From NCBI GenBank assembly GCA_017622505.1, contig JAGAQZ010000001.1, positions 1 through 48,395 of the forward strand: a stretch of DNA of 48,395 bases. Reading direction: 5' to 3'. The position numbers and the translations under genes are program-made. Shown here in pieces: positions 230 through 7,770 of this stretch; within the stretch, counting starts at the first letter, position 1, and each line of letters begins with the position of its first letter. Source of the stretch: Lachnospiraceae bacterium (GTDB lineage: Bacteria; Bacillota; Clostridia; Lachnospirales; Lachnospiraceae). The notes beneath the pieces were generated by a model. That model had not been told where the DNA came from. It did no database searches and saw only the letters and a list, made by a program, of their open reading frames with translations.

Positions 230-258
230 TTGACAAAATATTTTCGCAAGCGTATATT
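230..258 (+). promoter_or_regulatory. SigA-type promoter of the T-box leader
   Basis: A perfect -35 TTGACA (230-235) is followed after exactly 17 bases by TATATT (253-258). Transcription should begin near 265, just ahead of the conserved T-box stem I sequence. Confidence 0.85.
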
Positions 259-269
259 ACAGTTAAAAT

Positions 270-546
270 AAATAATTCAAATGAAGAAAGACTATGACGA
301 AGACGGTTGGATTACGGAATCTTCAGAGAGTTGGCGTTTGGTGCGAGCCAATGGTGAAATAATTCAAGAACCTATCACTTCTGAGTCGGAAGACCGAAAG
401 CAAAGTTGCAAGTAGACTCTTCCCGTAATGCTGCGTGAAGGCAAAGGACTTGATGGAGTCCGGTGAGTGGCGAAATTTTCTGTTTCGCAATTTGAGTGGT
501 ACCGCGGGTTTTGAACTCGTCTCAAAGAATTTTGAGACGGGTTTTT
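270..546 (+). promoter_or_regulatory. T-box riboswitch, probably isoleucine-specific
   Basis: Stem I sequence elements run from about 285 to 395, including an AGAGAG stretch near 326. The T-box core TGGTACCGCGGG is at 497-508. Two exclusive folds are visible. The antiterminator pairs TTTGAG (491-496) with CTCAAA (521-526) and GCGGG (504-508) with CTCGT (516-520), leaving TGGTACC as the bulge. The terminator pairs 518-526 with 531-539 and ends in T542-546. The candidate specifier before ACTTCTGAG is ATC (Ile) at 374-376, followed by the expected A. The bulge is TGGT, so the tRNA discriminator should be A, which fits tRNA-Ile but not tRNA-His (C) or tRNA-Asp (G). CCT (Pro, 371-373) would also fit the bulge. 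The T-box itself is certain; the amino acid is inferred. Confidence 0.95.
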
Positions 547-658
547 CTGTTTTTATAGGGGAAATACAATGTTTACAGTAAAACGCAGATATATAAGATT
601 CGTGTTCATGAAATAATATTATAAATGATTAATATAGTTAAAAACGGAGGTGTCAGTA
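547..658 (+). other. Leader between T-box terminator and the ACT-MBL gene
   Basis: This 112-base AT-rich leader follows the T-box terminator. It carries an AGGGGA (557-562) placed before a 15-codon open frame (569-616, stop TAA) of basic character, which may be a chance frame or a leader peptide. The real Shine-Dalgarno of the next gene, CGGAGG (645-650), lies at its end. I see no second clear promoter. Confidence 0.4.
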
Positions 659-2095
659 ATGAAAAAGACCTATGTAACATCAATGCCAAATCATATCGGT
701 GCATTTTTAAAAGCGAGTAAATGTTTCTCGGCTTTAGGGATTAACATTACACGCGTAAGTTATAACAAGGCGGTGGATTCTCATACCTTATTTATTGATG
801 CGGAAGGTAGTGAAGAGCAGTTAAGAAAAGCGGATGCAGAGCTTGAAAAAATTGGTTATTTACAAAACGATAAGGAGAAGAACAGTATCGTTTTGCTGGA
901 ATTTAAGTTGAAAGACGAACCGGGAAGCGTAACGGCAATTCTTATGCTTATTAACGATTTTAATTTCAATATTTCTTACATCAGTTCCCAGGAAAACGGA
1001 ACGGATTATCAGCTTTTTAAAATGGGTCTGTATGTAGATGAACCGGATAAAATAACCCGCTTTTTAAACGAGGCAAAGAAGTTATGTAAGGTGCGCGTAA
1101 TCGATTATAACAGCACGGAAAAAGTCTATGACAACAGCATTTTTTATCATAATTATGTAGCAGGGCTTGCCGGAATGATGGGACTTTCGGAAGAAGTGAA
1201 GCAGGAACTTCTGGTACACGTCAATCTTGCTATGCAAACGCTGGATGAGCAGGGGCTGTCGCCGTATCGTACCTTTGACAGTATCAGCAAATTTGCGGAA
1301 TTGTTAGCTGCGTCCAAGGGGGAGCATTTTATCCCGAGAATCACGCAGCATCAAATAACGGACAACACGGATATTACAATCATAGAGCCCCCTTGCGGAA
1401 GCAACGTTATGGTGATAAAAAGTCTGGGCGAAGTATTGTTTGTGGATACGGGTTATGCCTGCTATCAAGAGGAAATGATGCAACTGATTTATAAGATTCT
1501 TCCAAACTTTGATCATATGAAAAAACGTGTGCTTTTAACTCACGCGGATGTGGATCATTGCGGACTTTTACCACTGTTTGATGAAGTGATTACAAGTCAT
1601 AAATCAGCTGCATGCCTAAGCAACGAGTATGAGGGCGTCAGTGGCTACAGAGAGCAGAATCCCTTGCATAAGCCGTATATTAATATTTGTAAAATTTTAA
1701 CGTCTTATGCGCCTGTAAACCCTTCTAAAATCATCGTACCTTGGGAAAATAAAGAAGAAATGTCAGAGCCTTTGACACAGATTGGTTTTTTTGATTTCGG
1801 GGAGTTGCATTTTGAGGTATACGAAGGCAAAGGCGGGCATCTGCCCGGCGAGATCGTGTTGATTGACTATAAACATCACATTGCTTTTACGGGAGATGTG
1901 TATATTAATTTGCGGGGACTGACGCCGGAGCAGGCAGAGTATAATCAGTATGCGCCCATATTAATGACTTCCGTGGATACGGACCCCGGGCTGTGTGCAG
2001 ATGAAAGAAAAGCCATTCTTCAACGCTTAGGTGTTGGGAACTGGCAGATTTTCGGTGCCCACGGTTATAAAAAAGATTATTCCGTGAATATCTGA
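659..2095 (+). CDS. Tandem ACT-domain metallo-beta-lactamase-fold protein
   Basis: This 478-residue protein has two N-terminal ACT-like domains (about residues 1-70 and 78-145), which in other proteins bind amino acids. A linker follows, then a metallo-beta-lactamase-fold domain (about 245-478) with the metal motif THADVDHCG and a later FTGDVY that fits the bridging Asp region. The substrate is unknown; hydrolase activity is inferred from intact metal ligands. I place the start at ATG 659 because CGGAGG ends 8 bases before it; a GTG at 650 overlaps that site. The gene sits directly under the T-box at 270-546 and ahead of hisS. The T-box reads as Ile-type, so I infer a link to isoleucine or branched-chain amino acid status rather than to histidine. 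I do not recognise a gene name. Confidence 0.85.
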   Translation: MKKTYVTSMPNHIGAFLKASKCFSALGINITRVSYNKAVDSHTLFIDAEGSEEQLRKADAELEKIGYLQNDKEKNSIVLLEFKLKDEPGSVTAILMLINDFNFNISYISSQENGTDYQLFKMGLYVDEPDKITRFLNEAKKLCKVRVIDYNSTEKVYDNSIFYHNYVAGLAGMMGLSEEVKQELLVHVNLAMQTLDEQGLSPYRTFDSISKFAELLAASKGEHFIPRITQHQITDNTDITIIEPPCGSNVMVIKSLGEVLFVDTGYACYQEEMMQLIYKILPNFDHMKKRVLLTHADVDHCGLLPLFDEVITSHKSAACLSNEYEGVSGYREQNPLHKPYINICKILTSYAPVNPSKIIVPWENKEEMSEPLTQIGFFDFGELHFEVYEGKGGHLPGEIVLIDYKHHIAFTGDVYINLRGLTPEQAEYNQYAPILMTSVDTDPGLCADERKAILQRLGVGNWQIFGAHGYKKDYSVNI

Positions 2096-2289: not shown

Positions 2290-3552
2290 ATGAGTTTAAT
2301 CAAGAAACCGGTTACCGGTATGAAGGACATGCTTCCTGAAGAAATGCAAATCAGGGACTATGTAATGGACGAAATCAAGAATACTTACGCAAAGTTTGGT
2401 TTTTCACACATTGAAACCCCTTGCGTGGAGCATATAGAGAACCTTTGCAGTAAGCAGGGTGGCGAAAACGAGAAGCTTATTTTTAAGGTATTGAAAAGAG
2501 GCGAGAAGTTAAACCTTGAAGCTGCTAAGGAAGAAAACGACTTGGTTGACAGTGGTTTGCGTTATGATTTGACTGTGCCTTTGGCAAGATTTTATGCAAA
2601 TAATGCTGCAAACTTAAACCAGCCTTTTAAGGCATTACAGATGGGTAACGTATGGCGTGCGGACAGGCCCCAGAAGGGACGTTTCCGCCAGTTTGTGCAG
2701 TGTGATATTGATATCCTTGGTGAGCCTTCCAACTTAGCTGAAATTGAGTTGGTGCTTGCAACCACAACCCTTCTCGGAAAGCTTGGCTTTGAGAATTTTA
2801 AGGTACACATCAACGAACGTCGTATTTTGAAAGCAATGGCTGCTTACAGCGGTTTTGCCGAGGAAGATTACGACCAGGTATTTATCCAGTTGGATAAAAT
2901 GGACAAGATTGGTATCGATGGCGTGAAGGAAGCACTTTTGGGATGTGAATTCGCACCGGAATGCGTTGAGAAGTACATGACTCTCTTTGATAAAATGAAT
3001 GCCGCGGAAGACAAGCTTACTTTCTTAAAAGAAGAACTTGGCGATTGCCTGGAAGAAGGTGTGGCTGATAATCTTGCGGAGATTTTTGCAACCGTGGAAG
3101 CTGCTAAGAAGGCAGACTGTGAAATTATGTTTGACCCCACACTTGTACGTGGTATGAGCTACTACACCGGTACCATTTTCGAAATCGAAATGAAGGAATT
3201 AAACTGCAGCGTTGCAGGTGGCGGAAGATATGACAAGATGATCGGTAAGTTTACCGGAAACGATACTCCGGCATGCGGTTTCTCAATCGGTTTTGAAAGA
3301 ATTATCACCATTCTTTTAGAAAGAGGATTTAAGGTTCCCAACGCTGACAATAAAATTGCCTTTCTTTTAGAGAAGGGAATGGATGCGGCAAGAACCGGTG
3401 AAATCATCGCAGAAGCCCAGGCACTTCGTGAAGAAGGTAAAATCGTTCTGGTAGCCAAGATGAACAAGAATAAGAAGTTCCAGAAGGAACAGCTTATGAA
3501 AGACGGTTATACCGAATTTAAGGACTTCTACAGAGAAGCACTGAAGAACTAA
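2290..3552 (+). CDS. hisS: Histidine--tRNA ligase
   Basis: This class II aminoacyl-tRNA synthetase charges tRNA-His in the cytoplasm. Class II motif 2 is seen in MGNVWRADRPQKGRFRQF. The histidine-specific motif appears as LVRGMSYYTGTIFE, followed by AGGGRYD and a motif 3-like GFSIGFERI. The protein is 420 residues, normal for bacterial HisRS. The C-terminal anticodon-binding part (from about residue 325) diverges from the textbook alpha/beta pattern but is still present. I choose ATG 2290 because AAGGAG (2277-2282) precedes it; an upstream in-frame ATG at 2257 would swallow that site. It is followed by aspS, the common HisRS-AspRS pairing of Firmicutes. Whether it is co-transcribed from the upstream T-box promoter is not clear. 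Confidence 0.96.
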   Translation: MSLIKKPVTGMKDMLPEEMQIRDYVMDEIKNTYAKFGFSHIETPCVEHIENLCSKQGGENEKLIFKVLKRGEKLNLEAAKEENDLVDSGLRYDLTVPLARFYANNAANLNQPFKALQMGNVWRADRPQKGRFRQFVQCDIDILGEPSNLAEIELVLATTTLLGKLGFENFKVHINERRILKAMAAYSGFAEEDYDQVFIQLDKMDKIGIDGVKEALLGCEFAPECVEKYMTLFDKMNAAEDKLTFLKEELGDCLEEGVADNLAEIFATVEAAKKADCEIMFDPTLVRGMSYYTGTIFEIEMKELNCSVAGGGRYDKMIGKFTGNDTPACGFSIGFERIITILLERGFKVPNADNKIAFLLEKGMDAARTGEIIAEAQALREEGKIVLVAKMNKNKKFQKEQLMKDGYTEFKDFYREALKN

Positions 3553-3648: not shown

Positions 3649-5463
3649 ATGGCTGAATCAATGAAAGGCTTAAAAAGAACCCATCGTTGTACTGAGGTAA
3701 GCGAAGCGAACCTTGGACAGGTAATTACCGTAATGGGATGGGTGCAGAAGAGCAGAAACAAAGGCGGAATTATTTTTACAGACTTAAGAGACAGAAGCGG
3801 TCTTTTACAGATTATTTTTGAACAGGGCGAAAACGGAGATTTCGTAAATGCGGAAGATTTCGAAAAGGCAGAGAAACTTCGTAGTGAATTCGTTGTTGCG
3901 GTAACCGGTAAGGTTGTAAAACGTGGCGGCGCGGCAAACGAAAACTTAAAGACCGGTACGATTGAAGTACGCGCAACAGGACTTCGTATTTTATCAGAGG
4001 CAGAAACACCGCCTTTCCCCATCGAAGCAAACTCTAAGACCAAGGAAGAGTTGCGCTTAAAGCACAGATACCTTGACTTAAGAAGACCTGACCTACAGGG
4101 CAATATCATTATGCGTAGTGAAGTGGTAAATAAGATCCGTAACTTCCTTGCAGATGAAGGATTCCTTGAGATTGAAACACCGATTCTTATGAAGTCTACA
4201 CCGGAAGGCGCAAGAGACTATCTTGTTCCCAGCCGTGTGCATCCCGGAAACTTTTATGCATTGCCTCAGTCACCTCAGCTTTACAAGCAGTTGTTGATGT
4301 GTTCAGGTTATGACCGTTATTTCCAGATTGCAAAGTGTTTCCGTGACGAAGACTTACGTGCGGACAGACAGCCTGAATTCACCCAGGTGGATATGGAATT
4401 GTCTTTCGTGGATGTAGAAGATGTTTTAGATGTAAATGAGAGACTTTTAAAGAAAGTCTTTGAAGATACCATCGGCGTGGAAGTAAGCCTTCCTTTGCCC
4501 AGAATTACCTGGCAGGATGCTATGGACCGTTTCGGTTCAGACAAGCCTGATACACGTTTCGGTATGGAGTTACAGAATGTATCCGATGTAGTTGCAGGCT
4601 GTGGTTTCAGTGTATTCACAGGTGCCCTTGAAAATGGCGGTTCCGTACGCGGTTTGAATGCCAAGGGTCAGGCAGGAATGCCTCGTAAAAAAATTGATGC
4701 CCTTGTAGAGTTTGCAAAGGGTTACGGTGCGAAGGGTCTTGCTTACCTTGCAATCAACGAAGACGGTACCTATAAGTCATCTTTTGCCAAGTTTATGACA
4801 GAAGAAGAGCTTGCCAAATTGGTAGAAGCGATGGACGGACAGCCCGGCGACTTGCTTTTGTTTGCGGCAGACAAGAATAAAGTGGTTTGGGATGTTTTGG
4901 GCGCACTTCGTCTGGAACTTGCCAAGACTATGGAATTGATTGATAACAGTAAATACAACTTCCTTTGGGTAACCGAATTCCCTCTTCTTGAGTGGGATGA
5001 GGAAGAGAAGCGTTTCGTAGCGGTTCATCACCCGTTTACAATGCCTATGGACGAGGATATTCCTTACCTTGACAGCGACCCCGGACGTGTACGTGCTAAG
5101 GCTTATGACATCGTATTAAACGGTACAGAGCTTGGTGGCGGTAGCGTGCGTATCCATCAGGGTGATATCCAGAGCAAGATGTTCGAAATGCTTGGATTTA
5201 CACCGGAGCAGGCACACAGCCAGTTTGGTTTCCTTTTGGATGCATTCAAGTACGGTGTACCCCCTCATGCAGGTTTGGCTTACGGCCTTGACCGTATGAT
5301 TATGCTTATGGTAAAAGCTGAGTCTATCCGTGACGTAATGGCCTTCCCGAAGGTAAAAGATGCTTCCTGTCTTATGTCAGAAGCGCCTAATGTGGTAGAT
5401 CCTAAGCAGTTGGAAGAACTTTGCATCAAGATTGATCTTCCTGCAGAAGAAACAGAAGAATAA
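3649..5463 (+). CDS. aspS: Aspartate--tRNA ligase (bacterial type, with GAD insert)
   Basis: This class II synthetase charges tRNA-Asp. At 604 residues it has the bacterial layout: an OB-fold anticodon domain (about 1-115), then the catalytic core with motif 2 FRDEDLRADRQPEFTQ, then a GAD insertion (about 290-420), then motif 3 GLAYGLDRMIMLM near the C-terminus. Residues RYLDLRR mark the hinge before the catalytic domain. GAAGGAG before ATG 3649 supports the start. It lies 96 bases after hisS with no terminator between, so the two are probably one operon, and a strong terminator follows at 5491. The sequence alone does not show whether the enzyme also charges tRNA-Asn. Confidence 0.97.
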   Translation: MAESMKGLKRTHRCTEVSEANLGQVITVMGWVQKSRNKGGIIFTDLRDRSGLLQIIFEQGENGDFVNAEDFEKAEKLRSEFVVAVTGKVVKRGGAANENLKTGTIEVRATGLRILSEAETPPFPIEANSKTKEELRLKHRYLDLRRPDLQGNIIMRSEVVNKIRNFLADEGFLEIETPILMKSTPEGARDYLVPSRVHPGNFYALPQSPQLYKQLLMCSGYDRYFQIAKCFRDEDLRADRQPEFTQVDMELSFVDVEDVLDVNERLLKKVFEDTIGVEVSLPLPRITWQDAMDRFGSDKPDTRFGMELQNVSDVVAGCGFSVFTGALENGGSVRGLNAKGQAGMPRKKIDALVEFAKGYGAKGLAYLAINEDGTYKSSFAKFMTEEELAKLVEAMDGQPGDLLLFAADKNKVVWDVLGALRLELAKTMELIDNSKYNFLWVTEFPLLEWDEEEKRFVAVHHPFTMPMDEDIPYLDSDPGRVRAKAYDIVLNGTELGGGSVRIHQGDIQSKMFEMLGFTPEQAHSQFGFLLDAFKYGVPPHAGLAYGLDRMIMLMVKAESIRDVMAFPKVKDASCLMSEAPNVVDPKQLEELCIKIDLPAEETEE

Positions 5464-6462: not shown

Positions 6463-7770
6463 GTGCTTATGTTGAGACTTGAGTTGGAGGACAGGATGGA
6501 AAGAGACAAATTAACCGGTTTGTTGCTGTTTAATGATTTTTTAAATGTTGCAACCGACAAATTGAAAGAGAGTGATGCTGAGGATACTATGGTGGTAATC
6601 TCTACAGACATCACTAAATTTAAGTACATAAACCGTTTATACGGCTATGAAGCAGGAGACCGTCTGATTCAGCAGTTGGCGGAAATTTGTGTGATGCAGG
6701 ATGGTTATATGGTCGCATGCCGTCCGTATTCAGACCATATTGTCAGTTTATTTAATATCGGTCAGTTGACTTGGGAAGAGTTTGAAGAGAAATTAAAAGT
6801 AATACAGGATGACTTTGTTGCAAAGCATAAAAATGAGTTTCCGAAAGCTTCCCTGCATCTGAATACCGGTGTTCATGTAATTGAAAGCAGATACGAGAAT
6901 ATTGCTTCTGCAATCGATAAGGCAAATGTAGCCAGACGTAGTGTAAAGGGTAATTATAATGTGCCCTGTGCCCGCTATAACCGTAAGATTGAGGAGACCA
7001 AAGAAGGGGATGCTAAGATTATTCCCATCTTTGATAAAGCTTTGGAAGATAAGTCTATTCTGGTATATTTCCAGCCTAAAGTCAGTGTTAGTGAAAATGC
7101 CGTAGTAGGTGCGGAGGCACTTACAAGATTGAAAGATGAGGACGGCAATATTATTCCGCCGGCACTTTTTATCTCCGTACTGGAGAACAGTGGTAAAATT
7201 CTGGAACTTGACTGGTATGTAATGCGTTATGTTTTTGCGAAGATCCGCAAATGGTTGGATGAAGGCAAAACACCCAAGAGAGTATCCATTAACTTAAGTA
7301 AGTTGCATTTTTATTATGATAATCTTGTAAACGATATTATTGAGGAATTTGATTCCTACAATATTTCACCGGAATATATTGAGTTTGAAGTAACAGAGTC
7401 TGTATTCTTTGAAGAAGCACAGCTTATCATTAAGAAAATTGAGAAACTTCGTGAACGTGGTTTCCGCGTCAGCGTGGATGACTTCGGTGCAGGATATTCT
7501 TCACTTAATTTGATTGGTATTTTACCTGTTGATATTATTAAATTGGATAAAGGTTTTATTAAGAACAGTTTGGGCAACAATCGAGGTAAAAACATCATCA
7601 AAGGATTGATTTCCATTCTGAATGAAATTGATTTGGAAATTGTCTGTGAAGGTATTGAGACCAAGGAAGAGGAGAAGATTGTATATGAATTCGGATGCGA
7701 TTCCATGCAGGGATTCTTATATGACAAACCGATTCCGGTAGAAGATTTTGAACGTAAATATGTAATTTAA
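6463..7770 (+). CDS. Degenerate GGDEF plus intact EAL protein (c-di-GMP phosphodiesterase)
   Basis: The protein has 435 residues. The N-terminal half opens with a run-in of the form RDKLTGL and has the GGDEF-domain signature DITKFKYINRLYGYEAGDRL, but the GGDEF loop itself reads like RPYSDHIVS, so cyclase activity should be lost. The C-terminal EAL domain keeps the key residues: EALTRL, SINLS, EVTES, DDFGAGYSS, KLDKGFI, CEGIET and QGFLYDKP. It is therefore a likely c-di-GMP phosphodiesterase, with the dead GGDEF perhaps acting as a GTP sensor as in other such proteins. There is no membrane segment. The start is uncertain: GTG 6463 has AAGGGGA 10 bases upstream and keeps the run-in helix, but ATG 6496 has GGAGGA four to five bases before it. 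It is monocistronic. Confidence 0.9.
   Translation: MLMLRLELEDRMERDKLTGLLLFNDFLNVATDKLKESDAEDTMVVISTDITKFKYINRLYGYEAGDRLIQQLAEICVMQDGYMVACRPYSDHIVSLFNIGQLTWEEFEEKLKVIQDDFVAKHKNEFPKASLHLNTGVHVIESRYENIASAIDKANVARRSVKGNYNVPCARYNRKIEETKEGDAKIIPIFDKALEDKSILVYFQPKVSVSENAVVGAEALTRLKDEDGNIIPPALFISVLENSGKILELDWYVMRYVFAKIRKWLDEGKTPKRVSINLSKLHFYYDNLVNDIIEEFDSYNISPEYIEFEVTESVFFEEAQLIIKKIEKLRERGFRVSVDDFGAGYSSLNLIGILPVDIIKLDKGFIKNSLGNNRGKNIIKGLISILNEIDLEIVCEGIETKEEEKIVYEFGCDSMQGFLYDKPIPVEDFERKYVI

Follow-up and report, generated by a model that had tools for sequence, protein, structure and literature searches.

An isoleucine-type T-box leader upstream of an ACT-ACT-metallo-beta-lactamase gene, and its possible link to carboxylic acid salvage in rumen Clostridia

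Near one end of a 48,395-nucleotide stretch of DNA from a Lachnospiraceae bacterium (assembly GCA_017622505.1, contig JAGAQZ010000001.1, positions 1 to 48,395; hereafter the window), a putative T-box leader precedes a gene for a protein with two ACT domains and a metallo-beta-lactamase (MBL) domain, here called ACT-MBL. The genes that follow resemble hisS and aspS. Why would a candidate metal hydrolase with amino acid-binding domains be placed under the control of uncharged tRNA, and of which tRNA? An earlier note on this DNA favored isoleucine and left the combination unexplained. We find that the leader is, convincingly, a genuine T-box of the Ile (AUC) type, and that the tie of ACT-MBL to isoleucine is well supported. 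Neighboring genes in related Clostridia lead us to infer, as the simplest reading, that T-box RNAs control a salvage route from carboxylic acids to amino acids. To our knowledge, the bacterial genes for acid-to-amino-acid synthesis in the rumen, and their control, are poorly settled.

The leader (Table 1) is the sole Rfam match at the gathering threshold within the window. It has the features of Ile-type RF00230 members, namely a Stem I with a specifier loop, a T-box sequence carrying UGGU, and an antiterminator that overlaps a terminator. The score over threshold, the conserved specifier, the UGGN bulge and the overlapping terminator all support membership in this family, and the covariance alignment places AUC in the specifier columns, as the earlier note had read it. 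An excerpt of the TBDB report gives AUC as the preferred Ile specifier (PMC7778990). Of the two folds previously described for this leader, the terminator is strong (-18.3 kcal/mol, z -5.3), with none of 200 shuffled sequences folding as well. The antiterminator is weak by energy (z -0.5, 59 of 200 shuffles as good) and is backed by the family model.

Table 1. Features at the start of the window, with positions counted from its first nucleotide.
Feature	Positions	Strand	Basis
Sigma-70-like promoter TTGACA-17-TATATT	230..258	+	Consensus match, 11/12 bases
T-box leader RNA, Ile type	285..527	+	RF00230, 106.1 bits, gathering score 93, E 1.5e-22
Specifier codon ATC (AUC, Ile)	374..376	+	Specifier columns of cmscan alignment; next base A
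Antiterminator fold	493..526	+	-7.5 kcal/mol; competes with terminator
Acceptor-end bulge UGGU of T-box sequence	497..500	+	Covariance alignment; invariant in 12/12 leader rows (alignment A4)
Intrinsic terminator, overlapping antiterminator	513..544	+	Terminator-site scan and folding
Ribosome-binding site GGAGG	646..650	+	Sequence inspection
ACT-ACT-helical linker-MBL gene, 478 aa	659..2095	+	Best start ATG 659 behind GGAGG; domain matches
PPCGSN loop, residues 244-249, start of MBL domain	1388..1405	+	Invariant in alignments A2 (37 rows) and A3 (29 rows)
Metal motif H295-x-D297-x-D299-H300	1541..1558	+	Invariant in 29/29 rows, MBL-only alignment A3
hisS-like gene, downstream neighbor	2290..3552	+	Name by inspection
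aspS-like gene, downstream	3649..5463		Name by inspection

Such a leader would act on transcription by pairing with tRNA-Ile(GAU), whose uncharged form would favor the antiterminator and allow ACT-MBL to be transcribed. A tRNA-Ile(GAU) gene was not found among the tRNAs from this draft genome (23 of the 30 listed tRNA loci were scanned), and a truncated tRNA-Ile(GAU) gene in a genome of the same genus (G781, locus L188) has discriminator A by inspection. The earlier note had excluded histidine and aspartate because the bulge demands this base, and by inspection tRNA-His of this genome carries C73 and tRNA-Asp G73. Given the rules excerpted from TBDB, which allow a G-U wobble and leave the discriminator unused for His (PMC7778990), we dropped the discriminator alone as proof against either amino acid.

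On the sequence comparison, His and Asp are instead excluded by the conservation of ATC in homologous leaders. We assembled 84 ACT-MBL loci with flanks of up to 5 kb, comprising 80 from a scan of named genomes, the window, and L009-L011. The 80 are the best of 270 found, and thus counts lean to close relatives. A regular expression for the T-box core, which is blind to variant cores, gave 42 matches in these loci plus the locus of an ilvA-like gene; a complementary Rfam check covered 31 loci at the gathering threshold only. Forty matches were long enough to align, and two were left out as too-short fragments (L099, before its ligase, and L075, far upstream). ATC is present in 31 of the 40 aligned leaders, those of the window and ilvA included, where it is followed by A in 22 and by C in nine and is preceded by T or C. 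Because the flanking bases vary around an invariant ATC, the His frame (CAC) fails. The Asp, Tyr and Ser frames are likewise ruled out, since ATC alone is invariant in these 31 leaders.

The other aligned leaders are of several kinds. Three carry a CTC (Leu) specifier (L042, L065, L083). Four that belong to PaaK-like phenylacetate-CoA ligase genes carry GAATTC, read as UUC (Phe), although column extraction misread three of these four as TCA, TCA and TCC. The cmscan alignment of a fifth PaaK leader (L200) agrees with UUC, and for a sixth (L220) the cmscan columns give UCA, one base off UUC. Two further matches were kept among the 40 as non-ATC: a minus-strand match in L067 without Stem I motifs, which we take to be a chance match, and a T-box (L102, +3945) that precedes a pheS-like gene.

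These comparisons bear on the idea that the cassette mainly serves hisS and aspS, under His or Asp control, with ACT-MBL as a passenger. The hisS-like gene begins 194 bases after ACT-MBL, and the pair is kept in the three nearest relatives of the window (L026, L027, L028). The adjacency is thus real, as the earlier note observed, but local, being present at four of the 84 loci. CAC is not kept around the invariant ATC, hisS was not seen in the examined stretch at 27 of the 30 ATC-leader loci, and L028 keeps hisS without a T-box. We find control of hisS-aspS scarcely credible.

The ACT-MBL protein is composed of an ACT pair (about residues 1-148), a linker (159-218) and the MBL domain (about 224-478). 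The window protein scores over the Pfam cut-offs for both ACT (PF01842, 33.6 bits, cut-off 27) and Lactamase_B (PF00753, 34.1 bits, cut-off 22.7), and all 37 aligned homologues match both families at E 0.001. In the AlphaFold model, the mean predicted local distance difference test score is 83.6 for the whole protein and 93.2 for the MBL part alone. The classical motif of the MBL superfamily is HxHxDH, and HxDxDH is a known kind of variation. Here the second position is Asp in 29 of 29 rows, so that membership in the superfamily rests on score and fold. The further expected metal ligands H394, D413 and H468 are also invariant in the same 29 rows of the MBL-only alignment (H468 is near-invariant in alignment A2, where some rows are cut short). 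Because all expected ligands are invariant, the metal site is likely to be active. A role as a beta-lactamase resistance gene was rejected, as the NCBIfam class B models score 17.4 of 100 and 16.5 of 200 bits, below their curated cut-offs.

In sequence searches of solved structures, phmmer with the whole protein gave only weak partial matches (best E 0.012). For the 37-row profile, the partial matches were to BcII-type MBLs (best E 2.3e-7) and to ACT domains, with a resemblance to those of RelA, the acetohydroxyacid synthase (AHAS) small subunit and phenylalanine hydroxylase. In fold comparison, TTHA1429, BcII, flavodiiron MBL domains and PqsE are matched at Z 17.2-19.3. ACT-MBL differs from these MBL-fold proteins in its HxDxDH motif, the invariant PPCGSN loop, and the tandem ACT domains and helical linker in front. 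With ACT feedback enzymes such as prephenate dehydratase, phenylalanine hydroxylase, the AHAS small subunit and RelA, it shares the ACT domain, over the Pfam cut-off and with weak matches to solved ACT domains. In ACT-MBL the partner of ACT is an MBL domain, whereas those proteins pair it with a biosynthetic or (p)ppGpp enzyme. The structure match lists may have missed a relative whose function is known.

The flavodiiron MBL domains among the top fold matches raise another explanation, in which the MBL domain is an oxygen- or nitric oxide-reducing di-iron protein that shields an oxygen-sensitive 2-oxoacid:ferredoxin oxidoreductase step. Nine of the 37 members also match the ODP family (PF19583) at E 0.001. 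However, the motif of flavodiiron proteins is HxExDH, whereas ACT-MBL has HxDxDH, with Asp at the second position. The window protein reaches 19.1 bits against the ODP cut-off of 27.2, and neither flavodoxin nor rubredoxin appears among its Pfam matches. A di-iron function therefore seems unlikely to us.

Gene neighborhoods point elsewhere. An ATC leader is found at 30 of the 84 ACT-MBL loci (window included), each within 3 kb. Twenty-three of these leaders lie upstream of ACT-MBL, of which five have no intervening gene, two have only a MaoC-like gene and 16 have a ligase gene in between; the remaining seven lie downstream, in front of the ligase. This partner, which is present on the same strand at 29 of the 84 loci, is a fused HTH(XRE)-cupin-acyl-CoA ligase (HTH denotes helix-turn-helix and CoA coenzyme A; Pfam domains HTH_3, Cupin_2 and AMP-binding). 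Its best NCBIfam match is MbcS (NF047394), at 444.6 bits for the partner ligase and 439.5 for the copy in the window's genome. According to an excerpt of the primary report, MbcS activates 2-methylbutyrate and isobutyrate, and in Staphylococcus aureus it feeds the branched-chain fatty acids of the membrane (PMC10026030). The partner ligase differs from S. aureus MbcS by its N-terminal HTH and cupin domains and by T-box control, and its score is about half the curated cut-off.

Other tracked neighbors are rarer. A TIM-AMP-like ligase, in which a xylose-isomerase-like TIM (triosephosphate isomerase) barrel is fused to an acyl-CoA ligase, occurs at 10 of the 84 loci, and LeuA-like and PaaK-like genes occur at four each. 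A gene for a 143-residue MaoC-like protein lies within 5 kb at 20 of the 84 loci (for example L080, L094, L050, L042, L083 and L084), and 15 times it is directly upstream of ACT-MBL on the same strand.

The strongest sign of a shared function comes from the draft genomes G816 and G817, in which ligase (L230, L221) and ACT-MBL (L060, L226) lie on separate contigs, each with its own AUC T-box, because one shared leader cannot explain this pattern. The two ligases are 57% and 86% identical, respectively, to the ligase of L053 (ligase open reading frames compared from separately fetched loci end at the locus edges, except in L220), and the T-boxes of L221 and L226 score 90 bits, just below the cut-off of 93. 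Among 391 sampled genomes of the class, a ligase of at least 1000 bits is present in 29 of the 37 genomes with ACT-MBL versus 52 of the 354 without it (Fisher p 1.6e-15, ignoring ancestry).

The same data speak to whether the window leader is simply a copy of the leader of ilvA or of a ligase, placed in front of ACT-MBL by chance, making the pairing functionless. Over aligned bases, the window leader is 73.5-96.5% identical to other ATC leaders, including 77% identity to the ilvA leader of its own genome and 74-85% to ligase leaders, as a copy would be. However, in the window clade, L060 and L072, which occupy three separate places in the tree, an ATC leader is followed immediately by ACT-MBL. 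The ATC/ligase context, present in 36 of 94 tree rows, takes 15 changes versus a mean of 29.1 in 200 shuffles, which argues that it was partly inherited yet re-formed many times. Given this recurrence across the tree, a chance landing is highly unlikely.

We therefore considered what a T-box, an MbcS-like ligase and a gated hydrolase might do together. In related Clostridia, the same leader type would drive the ligase and ACT-MBL, whether the two share an operon or lie apart. The ligase would convert 2-methylbutyrate to 2-methylbutyryl-CoA, a 2-oxoacid:ferredoxin oxidoreductase would carboxylate this thioester reductively to the keto acid, and transamination would direct the flux to isoleucine. 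ACT-MBL would serve this branch as a metallohydrolase gated by amino acids. Its likeliest activity would be that of an acyl-CoA thioesterase or a similar hydrolase, switched by the ACT pair in response to the free amino acid so as to stop flux or release trapped CoA. The full set of metal ligands, the tandem ACT domains and the recurrent place of the gene beside ligases suggest a gated hydrolase with acyl-CoA thioesters as the likeliest substrate. The salvage proposal draws on the MbcS-like ligase, on known rumen routes from acids to amino acids, and on a specifier that follows the ligase type. Taken as a whole, the model of 2-methylbutyrate salvage into isoleucine under an Ile T-box, with ACT-MBL as the gated hydrolase, seems to us evenly poised between right and wrong. 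The earlier suggestion of a branched-chain amino acid pathway looks good in light of the Ile-type T-boxes and the link to MbcS-like ligases.

A precedent for this chemistry is found in the rumen. For Methanobrevibacter ruminantium, the excerpted report names reductive carboxylation of 2-methylbutyrate as the probable route to isoleucine, proposed from a growth need and the genome (PMC2812497). The acid-to-amino-acid logic is the same here, where the route is suggested by T-box specificity and neighboring genes. The window's genome (G000), a draft of 2.44 Mb in 146 contigs, contains MbcS-like ligases and subunits of 2-oxoacid:ferredoxin oxidoreductases. Contig C24 begins within an eighth T-box, of which only the 3' half remains and whose specifier is off the contig. 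This half-leader is 80.6% identical to the window leader over 139 bases, and it precedes a fused HTH-cupin-acyl-CoA ligase that is 63% identical to the partner ligase. On contig C111, a second MbcS-like ligase has two neighbors: an XRE-cupin gene and, truncated by the contig end, a gene for the gamma subunit of a 2-oxoacid:ferredoxin oxidoreductase (92.7 of 235 bits). C75 carries iorB (265.6 of 230 bits).

Several observations weigh against the salvage proposal. If a thioesterase rose with the ligase under Ile starvation, the two would run a futile cycle, unless low Ile keeps the thioesterase inactive. The ligase reaches 444.6 of the 850 bits required for MbcS, which makes MbcS its nearest relative without filing it as a member, and eight of the 37 ACT-MBL genomes lack a close ligase. 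Fold searches with the whole model and with the MBL domain returned many MBL proteins whose Z scores differ by about 2 units at most, and no functional class stands out. At 31 of the 84 loci there is no tracked neighbor, some of these having little flanking DNA. No T-box was found at the Rfam gathering threshold, which would also have missed the T-box of L226, in the 31 loci scanned (30 of those without neighbors, L011 not being among them, and L028). The last of these, the third nearest relative of the window, nevertheless keeps the ACT-MBL-hisS arrangement.

Other loci tie ACT-MBL to other amino acids. It lies behind CTC leaders in the Leu-type operons of L042, L065 and L083, and at a fourth Leu-type locus (L075) it follows LeuA-like, TIM-AMP and amidohydrolase genes behind a leader too short to read. 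It is found in the PaaK operons of L079 and L084, whose leaders are read as Phe type. In two species of the window's genus (L198 on G800:C75 and L199 on G785:C46), an aroQ-like and an aroA-like gene flank it within an operon that also has pheA-, aroB-, aroC-, aroE-, tyrA- and aroF-like genes, as far as the contigs reach and with names given by inspection. Of these genes, the prephenate dehydratase and dehydrogenase of L199 were tested, and both matched their models below cut-off. In L153 and L154, a symporter of the sodium:amino acid type, named by inspection, adjoins ACT-MBL.

Thus, the aro, Leu and Phe operons, the symporter, the many stand-alone copies without a T-box at the gathering threshold and L028 make a serious rival of the view that ACT-MBL is a general amino-acid-homeostasis hydrolase outside acyl-CoA salvage, captured by whichever amino acid operons were available (Ile, Leu, Phe, aro). 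Its substrate might then arise in amino acid biosynthesis, as an intermediate or a by-product, or be a molecule with a regulatory role. In G797, ACT-MBL is divergent from a locus with a T-box and PaaK-, ACT- and aroF-like genes, and the resemblance of its ACT domains to those of RelA, the AHAS small subunit and phenylalanine hydroxylase would also suit such a role, as would the 31 loci without tracked neighbors. On the other side, the Ile T-box (30 of 84 loci) and ligase (29 of 84) contexts are far commoner and recur on separate contigs. A general homeostasis function is possible, and we remain doubtful of it. The claim that the gene is tied to isoleucine holds for the ATC leaders and the linkage to MbcS-like ligases, but not for the family as a whole, a minority of which stands under other control (3 of 84 loci with CTC leaders, 2 of 84 with PaaK operons read as Phe type, and the aro operon in two species). 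For this minority, the refuting case named in the earlier note, homologues under T-boxes of unrelated amino acids, does occur.

Under the salvage proposal, leaders with other specifiers might report on other acids. In the genomes examined, the T-box specifier follows the type of ligase, with Ile for XRE-MbcS, Val for other MbcS-like ligases, Leu for TIM-AMP and Phe for PaaK-like enzymes. Val-type T-boxes precede MbcS-like ligases at L223:1501-1731 (minus strand; specifier GUC) and at L216:1501-1750 (minus strand; GUA), whose ligases share 53% and 44% identity, respectively, with the L053 enzyme. This arrangement suggests isobutyrate-to-valine salvage. Leu-type CUC T-boxes precede LeuA-like genes, TIM-AMP ligase genes or both (L001/L118 on G000:C142, L042, L065, L083 and L208). 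L208 has the TIM-AMP ligase, L065, L083 and G000 C142 have LeuA-like plus TIM-AMP genes, and in L042 the MaoC-like gene and ACT-MBL come first. Phe-type T-boxes (UUC, with several columns ambiguous) precede PaaK-like ligases in L065, L079, L084, L087, L200 and L220. The L079 enzyme scores 526.4 of 646.3 bits as a phenylacetate-CoA ligase, and a small ACT-pair protein (ACT_8) adjoins the PaaK-like gene in L065, L079, L084, L087 and L200. A CUG T-box in G816 (L225:1501-1753, minus strand) stands before an apparent TIM-AMP remnant, in which the start of the gene runs into its tail, and which was not counted as a ligase.

The excerpted literature lists 2-methylbutyrate, isobutyrate, isovalerate and phenylacetate as rumen precursors of Ile, Val, Leu and Phe, respectively (PMC7356843). 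In the broadest form of the proposal, each salvage ligase would answer, through its T-box, to the tRNA for the amino acid made from its acid, following these same four pairs. ACT-MBL would be a new feedback device for this set: tRNA charging would be sensed by the RNA, at transcription, and the free amino acid by the ACT pair, which would gate a metallohydrolase that reopens the acyl-CoA. We advance this wider scheme tentatively and consider it rather unlikely in full. If true, T-box specifiers would reveal which amino acid each ligase leads to and make candidate genes readable from sequence, and ACT plus MBL would be a new effector arm of amino acid feedback control. The T-box and the protein domains are of known kinds, whereas their combination and the regulon appear to be new as far as our literature search reaches. 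Among the titles and abstract beginnings that it covered, none names ACT-MBL or an HTH-cupin-MbcS-like ligase as a T-box target. No T-box-controlled acyl-CoA ligase or ACT-MBL protein surfaced in the search, which is no proof of absence.

Four of the 397 genomes sampled from the window's family have long ACT-MBL matches that span both parts of the protein; in the fourth (G109), the match is split in two. At E 1e-30, matches occur in 37 of 391 genomes of the class, some of them partial, and in 10 of 31 genomes of the genus. By their titles, the kept loci are mostly metagenome-assembled genomes of ruminant and other gut Clostridia. Identity of the window gene to the 77 kept loci other than its three nearest relatives is 73-80%, against only 60-66% for five copies from its own genus. 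In trees, the window copy and its three nearest relatives fall inside the rumen set, apart from the four genus-mates included (L193-L196). L102 was left out of the second tree because its match length is not a multiple of three, and L189-L191 look like the same records as L026-L028. This identity pattern, the placement in the trees and the 74-85% identity of the leader to ligase leaders make it probable that leader and gene entered the window clade together, through lateral transfer from other rumen or gut Clostridia. Another same-genus copy (L197, G807:C35) is broken by several stops, is apparently decaying, and was left unused.

Upstream of the promoter-like site, the window begins with the tail of a short gene. 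The promoter itself is a consensus match only, as promoter-type sites number seven in the region versus 6.3 in shuffled sequences.

Beyond the window, G000 has further T-boxes. The genome as a whole gives seven at E 0.001 or better, of which three exceed the gathering score; the half-leader on C24 is not among the seven. Their targets besides ACT-MBL include an ilvA-like gene (AUC) and a LeuA-like gene followed by the TIM-barrel/acyl-CoA-ligase fusion (CUC). Others precede pheS-, cysE/cysS-, proS- and GNAT-like genes, with names mostly by inspection. The T-box before the GNAT-like acetyltransferase gene (L007:1501-1752, minus strand, G000:C142) scores 69.7 bits, under the cut-off, and its specifier columns give AUG (Met) and an overlapping UGG. 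Beside the T-box of the proS-like gene, on the opposite strand, is a TwoAYGGAY RNA (L005:1271-1438, plus strand, G000:C136; 98.3 bits). Finally, L200 carries two thiamine pyrophosphate riboswitches about 340 bases apart (6632-6740 and 6972-7078, plus strand), upstream of genes that look like thiamine-synthesis genes.

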